Assembly: GCF_007748035.1 (NCBI RefSeq)
Contig: NZ_CP036278.1
Coordinates: 2,356,001 to 2,420,000 of the forward strand
Origin: Aeoliella mucimassa
GTDB taxonomy: Bacteria; Planctomycetota; Planctomycetia; Pirellulales; Lacipirellulaceae
Length of the DNA stretch: 64,000 nucleotides
Direction of reading: 5' to 3'
Below, piece by piece: positions 15,401 through 53,105 of the stretch. Under the pieces are notes generated by a model. That model did no database searches. It worked only from the letters and a program-made list of their open reading frames with translations, and was not told where the DNA came from. How positions within the stretch are numbered: the stretch's first letter is position 1; every line of letters begins with the position of its first letter. Made by a program: the position numbers and the translations under genes.

Positions 15401-18400
15401 AGGTACCATCACTGCCAGCGACTTGGAAGACATCACCGTGAACTTGGTAGACGCCAACACGGTAACTCTCGAAGGTACTTTGGAGGATCTGAACGCTTAC
15501 CTCAACTCCATTGGATTCGATTTTTCTCCTGTTACAGATTTTGCTGGCACCGCCGAAATTGCTATCACGGTTGATGATCTCGGCAATGCCGGAGTTGGCG
15601 GGCCCCTCACTGGCACCGACACCCTCGACATTCTGGTGACCGATGTAAATGATATTCCGGTAATCGATGGTGACAACCTGATTGAGCTGGGAAGCATTGA
15701 TGAAGATACCAGCTTGCCACAACTCGACGTCTTCGCATTGACCTCGCCTGGAGGCGGTGCGGACGAAGCCGAGCAAAGCTTCACCTTTACCGGGGTAAGC
15801 CTAACGGAGGGCATCGGTTCCCTGGGCTTCAATTCCGAGAACGGAACAATTGACTTCACGCCAGCCACCGATTGGTTTGGTTCAGTAACGATCGAGGTGG
15901 AAATTACCGACAATGGCACGACCAATGGTGAAGCCGATCCAATGTCGACCACGGCTACAATCACCTTTGAGGTTACCCCGGTGGACGACGCTCCAACGTT
16001 CACACTCGGCGAGAACCCCTTAATCACGAAGGATCTGACTTCTACAGCCTTTGGATTCCTTCAGAGCCTGAATCTAGGCAACTCAGAAGGAGAATCGCTG
16101 GCAAACATCAGCTTCGATGTACTCAATGTCGCTGATGATTCCACTGTATTTACGGAACTCTCGATTGAGGATCCTTTCGGAGCAGGCAATCTAGTCATGG
16201 TACCTGCCACCGATGTTACGGGAATCTTCGATATCCGCATCACTATCACCGATGGCAGTGACGGTCCCTCTGGTGTCGAAACTTCGACTTCCATGGATTT
16301 CCAGATCGTAATCACGGACGGAAATGGGGATCCACCAACAGCCGTAGCAGACTCGATTTCTGGAGTCTTGGAGGGTGGCGTCTACGATACGGCGTCAGGA
16401 GCAGATGGCACCTTCAGCCTGCTCGACAACGATACCGACCCTGACATCACAGGGGACGAAACCGGAGACCCGATCGATAGCTTGTCGGTCACTCAAGTAT
16501 CCTATGGCGGCCTAACGGTTCCCGCAGGCACTCCAATTCCAACAGCCCATGGAACCGTGACGGTAAATGCCGACGGCACCTTACTCTATGAGCATGATGG
16601 TTCAGAGAACTTCACCGACACCTTCTCGTATACCATCACCGATGTGAACACCAGAGTCACTAGCGATGCTTCAGTAACGATTGAGATCGAGCCTCAGAAC
16701 GATAGTGTGCCAAACGCTATCGCCGAGGTGGATATCACGGAAGGTGAAGAAGGCACAACCCTCTTCACCTTCGATGGGCAAGGCTCCACTGATGACGATC
16801 TACCGACTGACAGCCTGACGTACTCGTGGGACTTTGGCGATGGCACCTATGGTTCTGGAGCTGTCGTCAGCCATACGTTTGCCGACGACGGGGTTTACGA
16901 AGTGGTTCTCACCGTTACCGATAGTGCACTTCACACATCGGAGAGCGTACCACTGACAATCACTGTTGCTGACGTTGCTCCTACCGCAACGCTATCGGGT
17001 GCAGCCACGGTAAACGAAGGAGCTAGCTACACCTTAACGCTAGATAGCATTAATGATCCTGGCGACGACACCGTAACCGATGTCGTAATCGACTGGGGCG
17101 ATGGAATCGTCGAGACATATGAGCTTACGACCAGTACGTTCGTTCATACGTTCGCGAACGGGACGAACACCACTAGCGACATTAAAGTACTGTTGGTCAA
17201 TGAAGACGGGTATCACGACAATGCTGGTGTGCTTCCTGTTACGGTAAACAACGTGGCCCCCACCGGGCTTCTGCTGAACGGTGGTGATGTAAACGAAGGC
17301 AACTCCGGGCTGGTGTTTGTTGTCGGTGTCTATGATCCGGGAACCTCCGACCAGGTTGTGTTCGATTACGACTTCAACAACGACGGGATCTACGACCTAG
17401 TAGGTTCCACCAGTAGTTCGGCAGCCGTACCAGCTTCGTTCCTGGCCGAGGGAGGTTCGGTTGCCCCTGCGACCGATCAGACCGAAGTCACTGTCGGAGT
17501 ACGACTACGAGATCAAGACGGCGGTGAGCAAGTGCTCTCCACTTCGTTCCAGGTAATCAACGTTGCACCTACTGTAACTCCGGTAGTCGACACCACGGCA
17601 AACATCAACGAACCGTTCACCAAGACGATTCAGTTTACCGATCCGGGTGCCGAAGCGGCTGGCTTTGATTACACGCTGGTGATTGAAGATTCCGGCGGAA
17701 AGGTCGTGGACACCATCACCGGCAGCACTGCAACCACGAACCGCACGGTTGAGTTCGCTCGCACCTTTACGACAACCGGCACCTATACGGTGAGTGTGAC
17801 GGTCGACGACAACAATGCTGGTGGCACAAGTGCTGTCGAAACCTTCACCGTCGACGTCGTCGATCCGGATGCGTTCTACACCACGCTGGAAGTAGTGAAC
17901 GTTACTCCCACCAGCAGTGGAGTGGCCATCGAGTTCAACCAGTCGCTAGACATGGAACAGCTGAACCTTTACTCCGGCATCAACGGTGCTGCAGCCGACA
18001 TGACACTCATGCGGGACGGCACCGCGGTGAAGGGCTCGGTGGTCTACGACGAAGCCACAAATACCCTAACCTTCGTAAAGACCGGTGGGACACTGGCGGC
18101 TGGCAACTACACGCTGACGCTCAAGAGCGGTAGCGAGCAGTTTGTCAGTGCCGATGGGGACCTTCTGGCTGGAAATCTCGCCAACGGCGACTTCACCACC
18201 ACCTTCTCCGTCGGATCCTCGGGCTCGATCCTTTCGATTCCCGACTTCGCCCGCGGTCCTGGCCAGGGGGTCGATCTCACCCCGGGTGATGCCGCGGATG
18301 TGGATCTACCGATTCGGGTGAACAACGTTACGAACCTGCTGTCGCTCGATGTCGAAGTCCACTACGATCCCGCCTTGCTGCAGATCGATAGTGTGGCCTC

Positions 18401-19988
18401 TGCCATCGATGGACTGTCGGTATTCGCTTCGATCGATAACGAGAATGGCGTGATCGTCATCTCCGCCAGTAGCACGACTCCCATTTCCGGAGCCGAGCTC
18501 AATCTAGTGAACTTGATCGGCTCGGTACCAGCCGAGGCACTTTACGGTGCTTCTCAGGTCATTGAACTTGTCACTCCAGCAGGATTGGCTGGTTCGCTCA
18601 ACGAAGGGGCGATCACGGCTACCACCGACTCGGCCATCCACAAAGCCATCTTTGTGGGCGATGTCGATGGTTCGATGAGCTACAACGCGAACGACACTGG
18701 TATCTTCGCCAGTGTGGTGATCGGAGTCACAACCGGGTTCCCGGACATTGCCAACGGTCAAGCGTCCAAGGCAACGTATCCTCTCACCGACCCATCGATC
18801 GTCGGCGATGTCTCTGGCAACGGAGCACTCGGCGGTTTGGATCGCTCGCTGATCGCCCAAGAGATTGCCGGGATCGATCCTCCGCAGGTGCCAGATCTGC
18901 CAGCGATTACCGCTCCTTTGGCTTCGGCAATGCTGGATCCAGCATTCAACCTGCCGGAAACCATCTATGCGGTGCCAGGTGAGTCGGTTCAAGTGCCGGT
19001 AGAACTCGATATTGAATCGGGTGCATCGGTATACGCAGCCGCGTTCGAGAGCCTGACCGACAGCGGGGTGGTTGACTTCCAAGGAGCGAGCAAAGGGGCC
19101 GATTGGGATACCAATTGGGAACTCACTCAGAACGAAGTCTCCGAAGGCGAAGTTCGCGTCGTGGTCTCTAACACAGCCTTCCAGCCGGCGGCTGAGGGTG
19201 TGAACCAGATCGTTAACCTGGGTTATACCATACCAGCGACGGCCGAAGCCGGGGACACCACGACTATCGAAGTGTCGCCGCTGGACCCAACGGATGCTGG
19301 CCTTGTTTGGACATCCGACACTGGCAGTGTGGTAGTCACCTACCCTGGCGACTACAACCGCAACGGCACTGTTGACCAGGCCGACTATGACATCTGGAAG
19401 GCCACGTACGGCTCGACTACTGATTTGCAGGCCGATGGCAATGGCGACGGCACGGTCAGCCTAGCGGACTACACGATCTGGCGAGACCAACTCGGCCTCT
19501 CTGTGGTCAGCTCAACTCCTGCTACCGCTAGTGCCATGACTTCGGCGTCAACCGAGGCTCCTACGGCTAGTGCCAGTTCCGATATGGGGACTAGCGTGGC
19601 ACCCGTAAGCCTTGGTACCGAGGACACCGCTGAGCAACTGCCGACAGCAGTGATGGCTGTCCAGGCACCAACAGCTGTGGAGTCGACTGTCGAAACCACC
19701 GCTTGGCTACAGGGTCCTGTCCAGCAATCAGCAACGCAGCCTTTCCAACGTAGCTTCTCCACCGACGAGTCGGTTGCAGAAGATAGCGGGGCACGCGACC
19801 AAGCCTTGTTGTTGCTAGGCGACGCTGTTGAAGAAGACTCGTCCGATCTGTTCGGCACTTCGAAGGAAGTGGTGAATAAGGACAACGTCGAATCGGCTTG
19901 GGACCTTGCCTTCGCCGAAGATGGCGAACTAGCGGAAGCCCGAGGCACGATTGGTCGCTTCGGGGCACGCTGGAATCGTGGTCTCTAA
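9465..19988 (+). CDS. Giant cadherin-like/PKD/cohesin/dockerin surface protein (LEPR-XLL type)
   Basis: About 3507 aa using the ATG at 9465 (MATPRFRHRQ); a TTG at 9450 is also in frame. A basic N-terminus leads to LQSLESRVLLAADL near residue 90, matching the LEPR-XLL motif of giant planctomycete exported proteins. Next comes a beta-helix-like stretch (about 100-260), then about fourteen cadherin/Ig-like repeats with VNDAPV-type hinges and acidic calcium-binding loops (about 290-2285). PKD-type domains follow, with YSWDFGDGTYGSG near 2450. A cohesin-like domain lies near 2945-3055, dockerin-like loops near 3062 and 3112, a second cohesin-like sandwich at about 3165-3285, and a dockerin type I pair from about 3294 (GDYNRNGTVDQADYDIW). 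It probably acts at the cell surface in adhesion or scaffolding. A long acidic C-terminal tail follows. Confidence 0.85.
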   Translation: MATPRFRHRQTSTATRRNATIAKDRREQRVARWRKCFPKVSLSRWWKDRIVENVCTAFREGAQAARSVVASTGTHIAMSRGGRKLGLQSLESRVLLAADLFVDDDWSSYAINDPIADVDSITPGDQAGVFGVDAFASIQAAIDSAAGSSIQVNDGVYQAVTLSSGTFTITAAGTSAEVASSSPALTVSGGATLDVDGLTFTDSTYDGESAILVTGSGTTLTLENATVRELNTGAAESLIQVDAGATLNISTATNGGNNTFVVNAGTEVVSSATFIDAAGTVKVDSSNTLQVAVPKNTAFEIDARLDGTTVTGLSTGSSTHGSVALVAGGNLRYTPTTGYTGPASFNYSLAGGLTNETVQITVFDTNDAPVITAPSTVGAVEETSQAITGITVSDVDAAAASNLTVALNVDHGVLDITLAGSASIEAGSTGSSSLTLMGSLADLNATLASLVYTGNGNFQGNEQLTIVANDAGNTGPGGPQETTKTLTIVVANTDDSFTLGGDSTTDVPEGGSKVITSADLNTDDPDGDTITYTITSLPSAYTGNGDFAGGAGLSLDDGATFLGLGDTFTQDDLGTLKYIHDGSETGGTTDTFGFSVSDGTTSYSDQLFTIDIIDQNSAPVISTPAGTITLAEEATVAIPSVSVTDSDAGENPISVTLTATGGTLSVVLAGDAEDGNSSGTAVLSLTGTQTDINDTLATLAFTGALDTYGEFTIEIHASDNGYSGGGGTQTSDKVVPVSISAVNDEPIIGGTQSFTVAEGQQITVAQSVLSAIDPDSVVEDITYTVTSLPSYGTLNKTTFTQAELNVGMVVYTHLGGEAPTDSFEVSVSDATGEGPIDDTAVISVAVTQVNDAPVVDVSLASQSIPNAVENEAFSFSLDANTFVDPDNSVVPGTDVLTLTAPGLPSWLSFDGTTFSGTPSNADVQAGSLTITVIATDLTNVSVSDSFTLTLVNVNDAPTVATTTGTTTYEENADAIVIDSGVSVADADNMNLVGATVTITNPEAGDQLVFSDTTEISGSYANGILTLSGTATVSQYQDALRSVKFVSIGDNPVGGNRIVEFVVNDGTTSSELISEEDGDDASLAYSKEVEVQPSNDSPLFSNGTLHVSEGAVISLASAISVIDPDTNPADVDITIESAPTWGTIMESGVASDGTFTLAQLQSGLVTYSHDGSENHSDQFELSVNDGGTPDYATVSVNISPINDAPALTNKISEQSPPAATEEQEYTFELAPDTFTDAEDATPPVLTAQLEGGAALPAWLTFDGTTFSGTPDQDDVQPGSLDIVVIATDSNLATSTDSFTLILNKINDAPTVTVGEEVTAFEEGTPVAIAPEISVADVDDTYLAYAYVTITNPEAGDTLVFVDTDNITGSFDGTTLTLTPVEDGATVEQFEAALASVQFSLSGANEHNPVEGTRVIEFMVEDATLDSNVATKEVTVTALNDAPYEVANTGMEIAENSTGNTLAMAALQFADYEGAATSDITYTLTNVDVELISLNLQGVGPITGGGTNNTFTQADIDAGLLTIDSLGTDALDGADHVTLTFDINDGSGNITSNVSFDINISRVNDAPVLTGDNQITATEEVDGTPVVTPIEIDDLAGSDEEDANNTLMFVVDSIPAYGELLIDGVAAVGGETFTQQDIIDGKIAYKHTSLLEPAGGLAGDSFDYTVSDSGSDLGIESVSGTLNIEIIESNDTPVVSGTLAAEFGNEDAANLVLTSNELTASDVDDVDDDLTFTITALPSSGSLLINNVPANLNQTFTQAQITNLEISYDFDESLEQSTSPFTDSFKFTVTDNRAVGAQTTGEQTFSLTITPIDDNVPTGVEGSIAVDEGAVEAVTELQGGLTSLLQLVSDADLGVAEHSELVVSEVNGTSVGPDTVIALATGTLTVQPDGTFAFAHNGAETPVTESFTFKVMDSANVSEEITVTIDVTNTNDAPVITTEDATGTTVVEEGTTTVKLATTAISDADVGDGNLRVTITSDAGQGTITASDLEDITVNLVDANTVTLEGTLEDLNAYLNSIGFDFSPVTDFAGTAEIAITVDDLGNAGVGGPLTGTDTLDILVTDVNDIPVIDGDNLIELGSIDEDTSLPQLDVFALTSPGGGADEAEQSFTFTGVSLTEGIGSLGFNSENGTIDFTPATDWFGSVTIEVEITDNGTTNGEADPMSTTATITFEVTPVDDAPTFTLGENPLITKDLTSTAFGFLQSLNLGNSEGESLANISFDVLNVADDSTVFTELSIEDPFGAGNLVMVPATDVTGIFDIRITITDGSDGPSGVETSTSMDFQIVITDGNGDPPTAVADSISGVLEGGVYDTASGADGTFSLLDNDTDPDITGDETGDPIDSLSVTQVSYGGLTVPAGTPIPTAHGTVTVNADGTLLYEHDGSENFTDTFSYTITDVNTRVTSDASVTIEIEPQNDSVPNAIAEVDITEGEEGTTLFTFDGQGSTDDDLPTDSLTYSWDFGDGTYGSGAVVSHTFADDGVYEVVLTVTDSALHTSESVPLTITVADVAPTATLSGAATVNEGASYTLTLDSINDPGDDTVTDVVIDWGDGIVETYELTTSTFVHTFANGTNTTSDIKVLLVNEDGYHDNAGVLPVTVNNVAPTGLLLNGGDVNEGNSGLVFVVGVYDPGTSDQVVFDYDFNNDGIYDLVGSTSSSAAVPASFLAEGGSVAPATDQTEVTVGVRLRDQDGGEQVLSTSFQVINVAPTVTPVVDTTANINEPFTKTIQFTDPGAEAAGFDYTLVIEDSGGKVVDTITGSTATTNRTVEFARTFTTTGTYTVSVTVDDNNAGGTSAVETFTVDVVDPDAFYTTLEVVNVTPTSSGVAIEFNQSLDMEQLNLYSGINGAAADMTLMRDGTAVKGSVVYDEATNTLTFVKTGGTLAAGNYTLTLKSGSEQFVSADGDLLAGNLANGDFTTTFSVGSSGSILSIPDFARGPGQGVDLTPGDAADVDLPIRVNNVTNLLSLDVEVHYDPALLQIDSVASAIDGLSVFASIDNENGVIVISASSTTPISGAELNLVNLIGSVPAEALYGASQVIELVTPAGLAGSLNEGAITATTDSAIHKAIFVGDVDGSMSYNANDTGIFASVVIGVTTGFPDIANGQASKATYPLTDPSIVGDVSGNGALGGLDRSLIAQEIAGIDPPQVPDLPAITAPLASAMLDPAFNLPETIYAVPGESVQVPVELDIESGASVYAAAFESLTDSGVVDFQGASKGADWDTNWELTQNEVSEGEVRVVVSNTAFQPAAEGVNQIVNLGYTIPATAEAGDTTTIEVSPLDPTDAGLVWTSDTGSVVVTYPGDYNRNGTVDQADYDIWKATYGSTTDLQADGNGDGTVSLADYTIWRDQLGLSVVSSTPATASAMTSASTEAPTASASSDMGTSVAPVSLGTEDTAEQLPTAVMAVQAPTAVESTVETTAWLQGPVQQSATQPFQRSFSTDESVAEDSGARDQALLLLGDAVEEDSSDLFGTSKEVVNKDNVESAWDLAFAEDGELAEARGTIGRFGARWNRGL

Positions 19989-47685: not shown

Positions 47686-49683
47686 TCACGTGGCTAGTTG
47701 TTTCGCGCGCAGTTCCGCCTGCATCGCCTTGGAGTTCTCTCCCAGAGCACGGTAGGCCGTAGCGAGCGTCTTATGCGCTTCGACCATCTTTGGTGCCTGC
47801 TTGGTGCATAGCTCCAGTGCCTCGACCGCTCCGGCATAGTCTACTAGGGCCAATAGCGATTTGCCAACAGTCAAATGCGCCCGGGGGAAGTGGTGCACAA
47901 ACTCGGCCGCGGTCATCGCCTTCTCCAGCGCCTGCTGGGCGTCGCCGGTCGCGAGTATCGCCTCGGCCAGCCCCTGTAGGGCAACCGCATTGTCGGAGTC
48001 GATCTGCAGCGACTTCTCGAAGGCCGCTTTCGCCAGATCGTAGTTCTTGCTGCTTAAATGCACGCGTCCCAAGCGATTGTGAAGCCCCGGCAATCGCGGC
48101 TCGGTCGCGGCGACCTTTTCAAAGTACTCCAGCGCGATTTCGGTGTTGCCTTCGGCCTGCTCGAGGGTGCCGAGCATCATCAGCACCCGCGGCGAGGCAT
48201 CCGCCTGCTGCACCAGTTCCTCGAGCACTTTTCTCGCTTCGGCACGCTTGGTAAGCCCCAACAGGCTGCTGGCCCTTAGCAAGGCGGCCGATGCCGACGA
48301 GGCCAGCTTGCCCTGCAACCCGTCCACCGTATCCTTGGCAGCCGAGTAATTGCCCGCGTCGAGATACGATTGAGCCAGGCAAAGCTGGTTGTTGGCAATG
48401 CAGTCGGCTACCTGCTGTTCGTCGTCCTCCGAAGGGGGATCGATGTAGCCCAGGTCCACCAGTTGCTGTAGCGCCTGCTGGGCTTCGACCGGATCGACCC
48501 GCACATCGCTGGCGTGCATGCCGCAGTCGCCTTCGATCTCTTCCCAGGTGAAGATCCGCTCGGGTGTGGACTCGAGCGATAGCATCTCGGCCAGCACGCG
48601 ACCAGGCATGTCTTCGCCGGCCGGCAGTCCCAACAAGTGCAGCACCGTGGGAGCGATGTCGAGCAGCGAAGCCCCGTACGCCCGGGTACCGGGAGCGATG
48701 CCAGGTCCTTTGGCCGCGACCACTCCGAACGGGCGGTGCCAGTCGACCGGCCCCGCTTTGCCTTCGCGAGGATCGGGGCGCAGGTGATTGTTGTAGTAAC
48801 CGTGATCCGAGAGCAGCACCACTGCGGTGTCGTCGCCGGCCAAGGTCAACAGAGCCTCGAGCATCATGTCGTGGAAGCGATAGATGCCCTCCATGCAGTG
48901 CTGAAAGGCCTGGAAATCATCGTCGGCCACTTGCTCCATCTTGGGAGGATGGAACTCCATGAACTCATGCCCGAATCGGTCGATCCCCTCGTAGTAGACC
49001 GCGGTGAAATCCCACTCGGTATTGGCTATCAAATGCGTTGCGAGCGCGTGCACGGTGGCCGTTTGGGCGAGCATCTGCTGCAACCGGCCCAAACGCATCG
49101 GCTTCGATTCCAGCAGCTTGGCCGCCTGCGGTACAAACGGCAGGATGGCGGCCGCGTCGACTTCGATCGGGCGAACGCGAAACTCGGCTAGCTCTTCGGT
49201 CATCTCGGCCGGCCAGACCGACTGCGACGGAGGCGGCGTGATGCCATCTTCCGTGGCGCGAAATGCCTCGAATTGATTGGAGACCATTACCCCGTTGATC
49301 GGCTCGGCCGGGTGCGAGGCGTACCAGCCGACCACGTTCGAGCGAAGCCCCTGCTGCGTGAGGATGTTCCAAAGTGCTTTGCACTTGCGACTGGTACTCG
49401 ACGTGGGTCGCACGCCCGGGCCGTCGGCATTCGGCTCGGTAAAGCCATACACGCCATGCTGCTGGGCGCGTTTGCCGGTAGCGATGCTGTTCCACAGAAT
49501 CGGCGAGAGCATCGGCTGCAAACTGGCAACGTTGCCCCACGAGCCTTGCTGCATGAAGGCCGCGGTGGTTGGCATCAGCCCCCGTTCGATGAGCGGGTGG
49601 ATCATCTGCCAGTCGGCAGCATCCCACCCCACGAGCAGCACGCGTTTGGGTCCGTCCGGATCGTACCGGCGTTGGATGGCCAT
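47686..49683 (-). CDS. Alkaline-phosphatase-fold hydrolase with TPR tail
   Basis: 665 aa from the ATG at 49683 ([20 protein letters not shown]). The N-terminal about 400 residues have the phosphodiesterase/nucleotide pyrophosphatase fold: VGWDAADW, the nucleophile region around LSPILWNSIATGKRAQQHG, and the metal ligands in YYEGIDRFGHEF and LLSDHGYYNN. The C-terminal 250 residues are about six TPR units. It probably cleaves a phosphodiester and binds partners through the TPRs. Its ATG shares a base with the stop of the PEP-CTERM gene upstream (TAATG), so translation is coupled. Confidence 0.8.
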   Translation of the reverse strand: MAIQRRYDPDGPKRVLLVGWDAADWQMIHPLIERGLMPTTAAFMQQGSWGNVASLQPMLSPILWNSIATGKRAQQHGVYGFTEPNADGPGVRPTSSTSRKCKALWNILTQQGLRSNVVGWYASHPAEPINGVMVSNQFEAFRATEDGITPPPSQSVWPAEMTEELAEFRVRPIEVDAAAILPFVPQAAKLLESKPMRLGRLQQMLAQTATVHALATHLIANTEWDFTAVYYEGIDRFGHEFMEFHPPKMEQVADDDFQAFQHCMEGIYRFHDMMLEALLTLAGDDTAVVLLSDHGYYNNHLRPDPREGKAGPVDWHRPFGVVAAKGPGIAPGTRAYGASLLDIAPTVLHLLGLPAGEDMPGRVLAEMLSLESTPERIFTWEEIEGDCGMHASDVRVDPVEAQQALQQLVDLGYIDPPSEDDEQQVADCIANNQLCLAQSYLDAGNYSAAKDTVDGLQGKLASSASAALLRASSLLGLTKRAEARKVLEELVQQADASPRVLMMLGTLEQAEGNTEIALEYFEKVAATEPRLPGLHNRLGRVHLSSKNYDLAKAAFEKSLQIDSDNAVALQGLAEAILATGDAQQALEKAMTAAEFVHHFPRAHLTVGKSLLALVDYAGAVEALELCTKQAPKMVEAHKTLATAYRALGENSKAMQAELRAKQLAT

Positions 49684-50594
49684 TAGCCTCGTCTCGCGTT
49701 GCGTCGCCGAAGTGCCGCGATGCCTAACGACCCAGCCGCCAACATCCCTAGCGTTCCGGGTTCGGGAACTGCTGCAGTGCTTAAGGGGGCGGTCGACGGA
49801 ACGATCGGGTCCCCGGTGAACGTGGAGTTGCCGAAGTTGGCCTTCCACAGATCGTAGTCGGCGGAATCGACCAGGCCGTCGTTGGTGCCATTGCCGTTGA
49901 GCACGCCGGTCGACTCGTCGGCGCCCAGGTTGTCGCGCCACACGGTGTAGTCGGCCAGGTCGACGCGGCCATCGTTATTGAAGTCGGCCGTGAGCGGACC
50001 TGGCATTTCGCCAGCCAGAAGGCCGACACTAGGCTCGTCGTTGTAGGCCCAGTCGTTGATCACGAACGATCCTGCGGCGTTGTCGATGGTCACGCGAACC
50101 CAGCCATAATGAAGGTCGTCAGCAATGGGAAAAGAGAGCCCCAGGAACGCCCCATCGACATTGTTGAACTCAGCGTAGGGATTTGCCACTCCGTAGGCCA
50201 TCGAGCCGAAAAAATAGTCGCCAATACTACTTGCATTGATGCCATAGCCTTCGTCGAGTGCTTTTGCATAGACGAGCGGCCTGCCATCTACGTTAAAAGT
50301 CAAAAGCCGGCCAGGCGAAAACAGCACCGATGCTCCCTGGTATGGGCCACCAAAATAATCTGAGTTCTTCAAGCGAATATCGGCGTACTCATCGGCATCG
50401 ATGCTCAAGTCTTGCGAGTAGCCTAATTCAATCGAAATGTCCTGCACGCCGGAGTAACGCACTGCTCCGTCGGCTTGGGCAGAAACCAAACCAGCCGTCG
50501 CGGCAGCAGCCACCGAATAGACTTTGCGCATGTGGTTCGCGGGACGATCGGGCGAAGAGCCATTGGTGGATGGAGAAACTGAGGACCGCGACAT
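49683..50594 (-). CDS. PEP-CTERM surface protein with dockerin repeats
   Basis: 303 aa from the ATG at 50594 ([20 protein letters not shown]). A signal-like segment [20 protein letters not shown] precedes a beta domain similar to the neighbouring 217-aa PEP-CTERM protein ([36 protein letters not shown]). Then come two dockerin type I loops ([20 protein letters not shown] and [18 protein letters not shown]) and a PEP-CTERM end ([13 protein letters not shown] then a basic tail). PEP-CTERM tails are cut by exosortase for surface attachment. Dockerin plus PEP-CTERM suggests attachment to cohesin partners. It is coupled by TAATG to the phosphatase gene downstream. Confidence 0.85.
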
Positions 50595-50708
50595 GGGACA
50601 ACTCCGAACGAACGGGAAGCTCAAAACTGAACGGATGAAAACTGCTTCATATAAAACGCGGGCTCTTGCGAGCCCGCGCGTCATTACTACGATGCGTGCC
50701 TCGCGAGC

Positions 50709-51362
50709 CTAGGCCACCGACTTCTTACGGCGACGCATGGCGGCCACGCCGGCAGCACCAGCGGCCAGCAAACCGAGTGTGCTCGGCTCGGGCACCTGGC
50801 CGGCGACGATACCTTCGCCAGGCACATCGTTGTAGGCCCAATCATGCACCACAAAGGTGCCTGCTGCGTTGTCAATCGAGACCCGCAACCATCCATAGTG
50901 GTTGGTCGCGGCAATCGGGAATGCGAGGCCGATGTAGGCATCGCTGGCGGTATTGAACTCAGCATCGGGATTCGCTGCACCGTAGGCCATCGAAGCAGCA
51001 AAGCTTCCCGTGGTCGTTGAGACGTCGATCACGTCGCCCATCTCAAGCGCCGAAGCGTAGCTGAAACCAGTGGTGAAGCCCACCAACTTGCCAGGATAGA
51101 AGTTGACGTACGCGCCTTGGTAGTTGCCACCACCGAACACGTAGTTCTTCAGGAGAATGTCGTTATAGGCATCGCCATCGAGGTTGATGTTCTCGGCTGT
51201 GAACTGAGCGATGCTCAAGTCGACCGTGCCAGAGTACACGATCTCGGCATCGGCCTGCGAAGCAGCGAGGCCAGCCGCGGCACCTGCCGCTAAGGAATAA
51301 GCAATCCGCTTGGTCGATTTCGCCGAAGCGGAGGAGTCTTTCACGTTGTTGGTCTCAGACAT
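50709..51362 (-). CDS. PEP-CTERM protein, paralogue of the dockerin-bearing neighbour
   Basis: 217 aa from the ATG at 51362 (MSETNNVKDSSASAKSTKRI). A signal-like stretch, AYSLAAGAAAGLAASQADA, precedes a beta domain parallel to its neighbour (IVYSGTVDLSIAQFTAENIN; GWLRVSIDNAAGTFVVHDWA). The C-terminus is VPEPSTLGLLAAGAAG plus RRRKK, the PEP-CTERM membrane anchor and basic end. It lacks the dockerin repeats. The two proteins are likely a tandem duplication in which one copy gained or lost the dockerin. Exosortase is not in the window. Confidence 0.85.
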   Translation of the reverse strand: MSETNNVKDSSASAKSTKRIAYSLAAGAAAGLAASQADAEIVYSGTVDLSIAQFTAENINLDGDAYNDILLKNYVFGGGNYQGAYVNFYPGKLVGFTTGFSYASALEMGDVIDVSTTTGSFAASMAYGAANPDAEFNTASDAYIGLAFPIAATNHYGWLRVSIDNAAGTFVVHDWAYNDVPGEGIVAGQVPEPSTLGLLAAGAAGVAAMRRRKKSVA

Positions 51363-51527
51363 TAGCACAGCCCCACGGTAGGAAGATATTGGTCAGTCCA
51401 GATGTTCGTTCGTCGTCGTCCGGGGCCGCCTGCGATATCCTCTAACCCGGGGACAATATCCTAGAGTCTAGTCATGTCGGCCGATGGCTCAACGCTTTTG
51501 GCCTCAACCTCAAGGAAATTTCGGTAT

Positions 51528-53105
51528 TCAGAGCCCACTTTCGCGCGAACGAGAGAATTGGCTGCGAGAAAAAAAGAGGCCTCCACCATCCACAATGCGG
51601 ATTGCCGCCATCCCTAACAGCAGCACCATGAGGCTCTTTGGCTCGGGAACCGATTGCCGCTCGCCGGGCGCGGTGCTGGGGGCGAGGCTCATAGCTCCGA
51701 AGTTCGCCTTCCAGACCGCGTAGTCGGCTGCATCGACCGTCGCGCTAGCTCCCGGGGCGTTCGCCAGTGGTCCGGCGGTGCCTAGGGCGTCGCGCCACAC
51801 GGTGTAGTCGGCCAGGTCGACTCGGCCATCCTCGTTAAAGTCGCCCGCTACCGTGGTGATCGCGGGGTCCAAGGCGACGTCGATCGCCAGCTCGTAGAGC
51901 TGCACCGCGGCACTGCTGCCCGCAACCCGCACCGCGTATTCGCCGGGAGCCAGCAGGACGGCGGCCAGCTGCTCGGTACCGCCGAGCCCTGTGTTGTTGG
52001 CAAAGTCGACTAGCTGCGTCTGGTCCCCGTCGGCCGCGTAGAGCGCTAGGGTCAAATCGTTTTGGGCTTGCGTGTCGATCGGCACGAAGTTCGAACCGGT
52101 GACCGACTCTTGGTAGAGGAACCCACCAGGAGTCAGCAGAAGGTCGACCAGCGAGTAATCTTCGAGCTGAAACTTGTAGTAGTCTTCGTCGCCCGCGAAG
52201 GAGATGCTGGCAAAATCGTCGGCGTCGGGTTCGATTTTGCCGCGCACCATCGGAACGTCGTCGCCAATCGCGACCGAAGCACCGACAGCGATCGCGCCTA
52301 GATCGGTTGCCGAAGCATACTGGTTATTACCATCGGGCAAACCGCGTTCGTAGGCATCGCCATACAGGTAGTGCATGCCCAAGATGTCGTCGAGTTGCGG
52401 GCCATCGAATGCGGTCTGGGCGAAGGGGTGCATCAGTACAAATGCCCCGAGTGCCTGATTATGCCCGAGACCCAACGCATGCCCAATCTCGTGGGTCAAC
52501 GTCTGGCGCAATCCAAAGTAGTTATCGGTCGAATCGGAATATCGCGCGGTATCGCCGGTGTCGAGCGTGATATGGGGGGAGGGAATAAAACCGGTCGATC
52601 CGTAAGTTCCTCCGTTGCCATCGAGAAAGCTGCCACCGATACGAATGTCGCCTCGCACGCCAAGCTCGCCGAGACTATTGGGCATCGGTGTCCCGTCGTC
52701 GTTCGGCTCGTAAACCAGGTTCACGCCACTTATTTCGCTCCACCTGGCAAACGATTGCTCAAGGAGGGAGAACCAAGAACGCTGCTCGACGGTGCCAGTG
52801 CCGCCGCCGATGAGTGCGTCGAAATCGGTGATCAAATCGCTGTGCAGCGAACCAAACGTCGAAGTATCGTCGGGCACGATGCTCCAGGTGAGGGTCACTG
52901 GCTTGCCGAGTCCGGCGGTCGTGGGCTCGCTGGCGGTCGAGGTCCATTGCCCGTTACTGTTGAATCCCCAGCACGGAGCGACCATCGCCCAGACGATCAC
53001 CAGGCTCAGCACCCGCAGGGCAGGGGGGCAATCGGTTCTCAGGCCGGGCAGGTCCAAAGTGGCTTTATCTCGCGAAACTGGGGAGGGAGGATAGGGGACT
53101 GGCAA
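51528..53105 (-). CDS. Matrixin-like secreted metalloprotease with dockerin and PEP-CTERM-like end
   Basis: 525 aa; the start is uncertain, since a GTG just before LSLVIVWAMVAPCWGF would put the signal peptide at the N-terminus. The protease part has the zinc motif HEIGHALGLGHN followed by the Met-turn region VLMHPFAQT, typical of matrixins (MMP-like). A beta domain follows with FASISFAGDEDYYKFQL. Then come dockerin type I loops ([20 protein letters not shown] and VDAADYAVWKANFGAM) and a PEP-CTERM-like end with VPEPKSLMVLLLG. It probably degrades proteins outside the cell while attached to a surface complex. Confidence 0.8.
   Translation of the reverse strand: MPVPYPPSPVSRDKATLDLPGLRTDCPPALRVLSLVIVWAMVAPCWGFNSNGQWTSTASEPTTAGLGKPVTLTWSIVPDDTSTFGSLHSDLITDFDALIGGGTGTVEQRSWFSLLEQSFARWSEISGVNLVYEPNDDGTPMPNSLGELGVRGDIRIGGSFLDGNGGTYGSTGFIPSPHITLDTGDTARYSDSTDNYFGLRQTLTHEIGHALGLGHNQALGAFVLMHPFAQTAFDGPQLDDILGMHYLYGDAYERGLPDGNNQYASATDLGAIAVGASVAIGDDVPMVRGKIEPDADDFASISFAGDEDYYKFQLEDYSLVDLLLTPGGFLYQESVTGSNFVPIDTQAQNDLTLALYAADGDQTQLVDFANNTGLGGTEQLAAVLLAPGEYAVRVAGSSAAVQLYELAIDVALDPAITTVAGDFNEDGRVDLADYTVWRDALGTAGPLANAPGASATVDAADYAVWKANFGAMSLAPSTAPGERQSVPEPKSLMVLLLGMAAIRIVDGGGLFFSRSQFSRSRESGL

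Follow-up and report, generated by a model that had tools for sequence, protein, structure and literature searches.

The aquatic planctomycete Aeoliella mucimassa (Pirellulales) carries a predicted calcium-binding module of the dockerin type in more than 120 of its exported proteins, and related species have versions of their own, a pattern that suggests one common partner per species. The window considered here, a 64,000-nucleotide stretch of its 6.61-Mb single-contig genome (NCBI RefSeq assembly GCF_007748035.1, contig NZ_CP036278.1, positions 2,356,001 to 2,420,000), encodes three of these proteins, namely a PEP-CTERM surface protein of 333 aa, a matrixin-like protease and a giant protein. 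We read the modules as dockerins that may serve as a genome-wide, many-to-one docking tag, and we rate this reading, on the evidence of the sequences, as about evenly poised. It is carried by two recognition positions that are fixed within a genome and differ between genomes, and by the scarcity of cohesins, the known partners of dockerins, in the genomes richest in the module. An earlier note on this DNA had proposed a cellulosome-like surface assembly, anchored by exosortase, in which the three proteins share the cohesins of the giant. Dockerin-like modules, cohesins, exosortase genes and many PEP-CTERM motifs are indeed present; a shared scaffold made of the giant's cohesins is the part that is not supported.

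Dockerin modules and the proteins that carry them

All three window proteins carry related dockerin modules, composed of a WRD hand (consensus GDxNxDGxVxLADYTxWRDxLG) and a WK hand (xxDYxxWKxxFG). The Pfam family Dockerin_1 (PF00404) detects them below its cut-off of 22.9 bits (PEP-CTERM protein, 12.1 bits; matrixin, 15.7; giant, 15.6), and many other copies in the genome pass that cut-off. Profile A1, built from 17 dockerin modules of this genome, aligns with the solved dockerin chain 2y3n_B over all positions 1-52 (E 2.2e-6) and also matches further dockerin chains, so that both two F-hands and sequence kinship to solved dockerins are found. The nearly identical dockerin pattern that the earlier note saw in the three proteins is borne out by the motif, by PF00404 at its sub-cut-off scores and by profile A1, with the refinement that the hands stand in opposite order in the giant, whose motif sequence is DYNRNGTVDQADYDIWKATYG...GTVSLADYTIWRDQLG. 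The second part of the matrixin dockerin reads VDAADYAVWKANFG, and its second calcium loop (APGASATVDAAD) has neither at position 1 nor at position 3 the D/N that is usual there. Among the modules in which the WRD hand comes first, loop 1 has D, N or S at positions 1, 3 and 5 in all 100, and loop 2 in just 35 of 96; the calcium residues on which the earlier proposal had been made to depend are thus kept in the first hand and partly lost in the second.

The module is not a private link among the three proteins, an idea that is rejected by the 123 copies of the exact motif DYTx(V/I/L..)WRD in the genome, where the reversed control pattern has none. At least 162 dockerin profile matches were obtained in the genome, and the window together with 117 fetched stretches yielded 144 modules in 135 open reading frames (ORFs), comprising 100 WRD-first modules, 29 WRD-second modules and 15 single hands. 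Dockerin searches in the richest genomes scored 150 of 290-412 candidates, and their counts are lower bounds; the motif counts made by DNA pattern are complete. The genome-wide catalogue of cohesins and dockerins for which the earlier note had called is accordingly long on the dockerin side, with cohesins above the cut-off only in the giant.

PEP-CTERM ORFs hold 91 of the 100 WRD-first modules versus 11 of the 29 WRD-second ones (Fisher p 1.5e-8), and those 91 modules end a median of 40 residues before the C-terminus. The other 18 WRD-second modules lie mostly in large, long-tailed proteins, and 8 of the 18 go with an LEPR-like N-terminal motif as scored by an author-made regular expression. 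The swapped hand order itself, seen in 29 modules of this genome, belongs mostly to large proteins without PEP-CTERM.

A Pfam scan covered 134 of the 135 client ORFs (all except the 4,645-aa ORF L109), reading at most 400 aa before the module in 24 WK-first ORFs. Three matrixins occur among the 62 ORFs of alignment A6, and the other families include rhamnogalacturonan lyases, the glycoside hydrolase families GH127, GH76 and GH85, fucosidase, sulfatase, cyclophilin, lamin-tail domains (LTD) and laminin-G domains. Most client ORFs have no enzyme family among the Pfam families listed. LTD is present in 11 of the 134 ORFs and is not among the Pfam families of the giant.

Residues fixed within genomes and different between them

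In published dockerins, recognition positions are 10, 11, 17, 18 and 22 (PMC5748583, PMC4582956). By DNA pattern, the WRD hand of A. mucimassa has D at position 18 in 123 of 123 copies and L at position 10 in 119 of 123, and the form with N at position 18 does not occur. A second genome of the same genus (G001) shows the reverse, with 102 of 102 copies in the N form and none in the D form. Other relatives are similarly one-sided, with D:N counts of 51:0 (G003), 79:1 (G005), 127:0 (G009), 111:0 (G014), 149:0 (G018), 131:0 (G021), 101:0 (G041), 72:0 (G045) and 11:1 (G002), and the reversed-pattern control is 0 in every genome. At position 10, A stands in 17 of the 18 motifs sampled from G009, in 10 of 12 first hands of G014 and in 12 of 12 of G018. 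The G014 and G018 samples were picked by similarity to the A. mucimassa profile, which biases them against finding A, and those of G009, G003 and G001 by the DYT-W pattern only.

The WK hand of the same modules is variable in A. mucimassa, where positions 10, 11, 14 and 18 vary freely and the top residue accounts for 10 of 52 sequences at position 10 and 20 of 52 at position 18. This variability is an internal control against simple recency. In sampled proteins of six relatives (G017, G020, G022, G039, G043 and G049) a hand reads DFLxWQRxFG or close to it; as a separate observation, the matrixin/PEP-CTERM cluster proteins read in G017, G020, G022, G043 and G049 have a second dockerin subtype (DFLxWQRxFG...DLxDWQxxFG) in place of the WRD type.

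Cohesins across dockerin-rich genomes

True cohesins do exist in A. mucimassa, where the earlier note had allowed that their genome-wide absence would tell against it: PF00963 finds two above its cut-off, both in the giant, which is the sole cohesin-bearing protein found. A third match, in the 4,645-aa frame, scores 14.8 bits and is below the cut-off. The comparison set consisted of A. mucimassa (G000) and 39 relatives, 13 genomes being module-rich (at least 20 profile matches at E 1e-10), and the cohesin searches exclude G039-G058. Cohesins were detected by Pfam or by a lineage profile in 4 of the 13 module-rich genomes (G000, G005, G015 and G017), and neither method detected one in the other nine (G001, G003, G007, G009, G012, G014, G018, G021 and G023), G014 and G021 being single-contig genomes. 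Among the remaining 27 genomes, the lineage profile finds cohesins in three (G016, G030 and G033), and Pfam alone adds matches in G011 (below the cut-off), G024 and G037. With no cohesin detected in nine of the 13 genomes rich in the module, and with no significant difference between 4 of 13 and 3 of 27, tag and cohesin are largely uncoupled across genomes. The long PEP-CTERM form, moreover, keeps its dockerin in all six of the genomes without a detectable cohesin in which it was read (G009, G014, G018, G020, G021 and G022).

The giant protein and its cohesins

The giant has an N-terminal Planc_extracel/LEPR-like motif, cadherin-like and PKD repeats, the series cohesin-dockerin-cohesin-dockerin and a tail of 163 aa, and it is without PEP-CTERM. 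That it contains cohesin-like domains, as the earlier note had claimed, is confirmed by two PF00963 stretches (43.6 bits), by profile A3, which matches 5nrm_A at E 3.8e-7, and by the predicted fold. The AlphaFold2 (AF2) model of cohesin 1 superposes on the ScaC cohesin 4uyq_A with Z 15.3 and a root-mean-square deviation of 2.0 over 127 aligned residues, a comparison that covered mainly residues 1-148 of the model. By sequence both domains are real cohesins, and cohesin 1 is one also by predicted fold. The best AF2 model of cohesin 1 with its dockerin (predicted template modelling score (pTM) 0.78, mean predicted local distance difference test (pLDDT) 82; the other four models are weaker) suggests a defined arrangement of the two. 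In the model of the whole C-terminal block (pLDDT 75, pTM 0.53), the last dockerin is weak, and it may or may not pack on cohesin 2.

This block is conserved as LPDFARGP, a cohesin and a long-loop dockerin, often followed by a second cohesin and a second dockerin, and then the tail; in the aligned sequences the cohesin directly abuts the dockerin that follows. A scan of 84,980 genomes with an LPDFARGP-type pattern led to 28 loci matching a cohesin-plus-dockerin query, mostly in planctomycetes; as the query held both domains, the loci are no independent count of their pairing, although the scan pattern lies upstream of both. These loci (L185-L212) also include several betaproteobacteria, Accumulibacter, one Rokubacterium and one acidobacterium. 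The last dockerin of the giant carries the local form of the module, LADYTIWRD here and GADFLIWQRQFG in G017. Since each cohesin runs into a dockerin of the same chain, the cohesins most likely serve self-association, within or between chains, rather than the scaffolding of about 130 clients, and the giant, which itself carries the tag, resembles a client no less than it does a scaffold.

A shared partner, concerted change or a hidden scaffold

In the mechanism that we favour, the WRD hand would be the binding face, read by one partner per genome, and the WK hand would mainly be its structural companion. In most clients the module is a cassette placed between ectodomain and PEP-CTERM anchor; in the giant and other large proteins that lack the anchor, a long tail follows the module and the order of the hands is usually reversed. 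PEP-CTERM proteins are anchored at the cell surface after exosortase processing, and the same route would hold most clients at the surface of A. mucimassa. On this view the matrixin would be a tagged protein like many others, instead of supplying the catalysis in a complex built around the giant. Fixed yet species-private residues at positions 10 and 18 are what would be expected if all clients had to fit one common, drifting partner. The giant's cohesins are unlikely to be that partner, because cohesins are absent from most tag-bearing genomes and because, in the giant, each continues into a dockerin of the same chain.

The scaffold role proposed by the earlier note, in which the PEP-CTERM proteins and the matrixin would be gathered by the two cohesins of the giant into a surface complex of the cellulosome kind, draws on two cohesins above the Pfam cut-off with a predicted cohesin fold, in the same genome as the dockerin modules. 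Precedents exist as well, since dockerin-bearing peptidases are known in cellulosomes (71 in B. cellulosolvens, PMC5590126) and a peptidase 'planctosome' has been proposed for other planctomycetes (PMC6461901). Against it stand the single cohesin protein facing about 130 modules, the nine module-rich genomes without detectable cohesin, the two single-contig genomes among them, the PEP-CTERM orthologues that retain their dockerin in the six cohesin-less genomes, and the fusion of each giant cohesin to its own dockerin. We reject the giant as a scaffold in general, given the cohesin-less module-rich genomes and the dockerins that PEP-CTERM orthologues keep in them, and for A. mucimassa itself we consider this complex quite improbable. 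Only marginally less improbable is a cellulosome-type assembly with a hidden scaffoldin, in which the partner would be a cohesin-like domain too diverged for PF00963 and the lineage profile. The code falls at cohesin-recognition positions, cohesin sequences are diverse, and genuine cohesins occur sporadically in the same order; the 13-sequence lineage profile, however, gives 34-135 bits to the cohesins found, several of them outside the profile, and finds nothing in G001-G003, G007, G009, G014, G018 and G021 at E 0.01.

The alternative that we rank highest, though still as unlikely, does without any partner. The module would be a calcium-stiffened spacer between ectodomain and anchor, made uniform by concerted evolution (conversion or cassette spread) together with lineage-specific expansion. 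It agrees with the position of most modules next to the anchor, with the fact that no partner is known and with a similarity that is higher within genomes than between orthologues: within one genome, the dockerin of the matrixin and that of the PEP-CTERM protein next to it, two proteins that are not homologous, share 59% identity, versus 46% and 45% for orthologous dockerins of different genomes, and none of 5,000 permutations reached the within-genome value. This test used 12 of the 15 genomes with the long PEP-CTERM protein, G017, G021 and G047 being dropped as their matrixin locus is not, or not demonstrably, a neighbouring one; the retained pair of G042 lies on different contigs. The excess is predicted by a common partner and by concerted evolution alike. 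Codon identity at identical residues, 0.55-0.57 in A. mucimassa, 0.52 in 11 motifs of G001 and 0.66 in 18 motifs of G009, is above the saturation value of 0.40 expected from the codon usage of the module genes of A. mucimassa. As an aside, the silent sites of the G009 motifs are more alike than those of G000, G001 and G003, perhaps through a more recent spread or a stronger codon bias. What the spacer accounts for poorly is that uniformity, which falls on recognition positions 10 and 18, is limited to one hand, the other being free; that silent sites in the 21-bp motif vary while D or N stays fixed; and that the same one-hand form recurs, in swapped order, in the anchor-less giants.

Several points weigh against the docking tag. 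Concerted evolution could homogenize tags without a partner, no partner of the tag was found in this analysis, and a very diverged cohesin could escape sequence profiles. Cohesins are somewhat commoner in module-rich genomes, although not significantly so (Fisher p 0.19). In a classical dockerin, the loss of canonical calcium ligands from so many second hands would be unusual. The 11 motifs of G001 differ at position 10 (L 6, I 4, A 1), WQR-type genomes show a small within-genome excess (0.59 versus 0.556), and the codon identities show module copies that are neither fresh nor fully independent. Finally, just one orthologous switch from D to N has been traced end to end, between the matrixins of G001 (L251) and G000 (L094), which are 59% identical over 504 residues and collinear through the dockerin to the PEP-CTERM, with WRN in the former and WRD in the latter.

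The docking tag offers a handle on its putative receptor, namely a fixed D versus a fixed N within one genus, in about 100 dispersed genes each and at a known recognition position. A receptor would have to differ correspondingly between D and N genomes, and it can therefore be sought by pull-down or genome comparison. If the tag is what we propose, it would represent a surface assembly that uses dockerins without recognizable cohesins, and it could supply orthogonal docking pairs. Should concerted evolution alone be at work, the joint change of more than 100 dispersed modules would remain out of the ordinary. A wider version, in which cohesin-free docking extends across the family with about 50-150 one-faced dockerin proteins per genome, a species-private code, a single receptor and a whole client set that switches code jointly, is put forward tentatively, as a possibility that we doubt more than we believe.

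The matrixin and PEP-CTERM locus

The window features are listed in Table 1. On the minus strand, the order in transcription is the matrixin-like protease, a 219-aa PEP-CTERM protein and the 333-aa PEP-CTERM protein with its dockerin, the last being 333 aa long from the ATG used here and 303 aa from a downstream ATG. The 333-aa protein exceeds the PF07589 cut-off of 20.7 bits and the matrixin stays below it. By BLASTP, the 219-aa paralogue, whose ectodomain is of the same kind, is 50% identical to the 333-aa protein over 161 aa and shares 17 of 23 residues in the PEP-CTERM.

Table 1. Positions of the features discussed, numbered from the first nucleotide of the window
Feature	Position	Strand	Evidence
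PEP-CTERM surface protein, 333 aa (beta-rich ectodomain, dockerin, PEP-CTERM)	49683..50684	-	
WRD-WK dockerin module of the 333-aa protein	49830..49988	-	profile A1, 85 bits
DYTVWRD recognition motif of the 333-aa protein	49932..49952	-	DNA-pattern match
PEP-CTERM sorting motif of the 333-aa protein	49701..49772	-	PF07589, 26.2 bits, residues 305-328
Tandem paralogue, 219 aa, PEP-CTERM, without dockerin	50709..51368	-	PF07589, 31.7 bits
Matrixin-like metalloprotease with dockerin and weak PEP-CTERM	51528..53105	-	PF00413, 36.9 bits; PF07589, 12.4 bits
Matrixin domain stretch with HEIGHALGLGH	52359..52631	-	PF00413, residues 159-249
WRD-WK dockerin module of the matrixin	51696..51845	-	profile A1, 82.3 bits
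DYTVWRD recognition motif of the matrixin	51789..51809	-	DNA-pattern match
Giant protein, 3,512 aa	9450..19988	+	Pfam
Cohesin 1 of the giant	18297..18662	+	PF00963; profile A3; AF2 model
Internal long-loop dockerin of the giant, directly after cohesin 1 (GDVDGSM...GDVSGNGALGGLDRSL...PQVPDLP)	18657..18902	+	alignments A2 and A8; helices in AF2 model
Cohesin 2 of the giant	18972..19352	+	PF00963; profile A3
Second dockerin of the giant, with the WK hand ahead of the WRD hand	19347..19496	+	
DYTIWRD recognition motif of the giant	19467..19487	+	DNA-pattern match

Relatives of the PEP-CTERM ectodomain are found in 17 of 59 related genomes and those of the matrixin in 33 of 59. By coordinates, the matrixin adjoins the PEP-CTERM pair in A. 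mucimassa and in 14 relatives (G005, G007, G009, G014, G017, G018, G020, G021, G022, G039, G041, G043, G045 and G049); at locus L214 of G014, a phosphodiesterase-like ORF resembling window positions 47686-49941 also adjoins the cluster. Dockerin-bearing and dockerin-less PEP-CTERM forms were both read in 13 genomes, and because they coexist there the dockerin behaves like an insertable cassette between ectodomain and anchor, sorting seeming to be independent of it. Four exosortase sequence matches lie in three frames of the A. mucimassa genome, at 137572, 1484638 and 2224109 of its contig (G000:C1), one of them inside a 1,742-aa frame. That the module might be required for exosortase sorting was considered and rejected, as G006, with 104 PEP-CTERM matches, and G019, with 116, are devoid of the module, and the neighbouring dockerin-less 219-aa paralogue contradicts it too.

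Comparison with known systems

No paper joining dockerin and PEP-CTERM was found in the literature searched, nor was a genome-wide code in cohesin-less genomes found described there; parts of these sources beyond those available may mention the module. What is already known is that in cellulosomes recognition residues are species-uniform and some peptidases bear dockerins, and that a peptidase 'planctosome' has been proposed in other planctomycetes.

In the cellulosomes of Clostridium, Acetivibrio, Ruminococcus and Pseudobacteroides, too, scores of proteins, and up to hundreds, bear a calcium module of two hands. Its recognition positions 10/11/17/18 vary little inside a species and differ from one species group to another (PMC5748583, PMC4582956), and peptidases are among the clients. 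In A. mucimassa, unlike in cellulosomes, the clients are mostly PEP-CTERM or anchor-less giant proteins, and across the 134 ORFs scanned they are not mainly plant-polysaccharide enzymes; the uniform face is on one hand only, and most module-rich genomes lack a multi-cohesin scaffoldin, no cohesin being detected in nine of 13.

The proposed 'planctosome' of freshwater Nemodlikiaceae (PMC6461901) shares with the present case a planctomycete host, cohesin and dockerin modules and secreted peptidases, and in its model M12B and M14 peptidases are held by an LTD anchor together with an adaptor that combines dockerin and cohesin. Here, by contrast, the peptidase is a matrixin with a weak PEP-CTERM of its own, the module occurs in more than 120 proteins and cohesins are mostly absent; instead of an LTD anchor with cohesin and a dockerin-cohesin adaptor, the only cohesin protein above the cut-off is the giant, which shows no LTD among its Pfam families.

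The PEP-CTERM/exosortase and GlyGly-CTERM/rhombosortase systems likewise match many exported proteins to one machine per genome, and the 333-aa protein qualifies as a substrate of the former, its motif being above the cut-off in a genome with exosortase. Unlike these C-terminal sorting signals, the tag of A. mucimassa would be a folded calcium module, and it is not a requirement of exosortase, as the module-free genomes G006 and G019 illustrate, both of which have exosortase along with more than 100 PEP-CTERM motifs.

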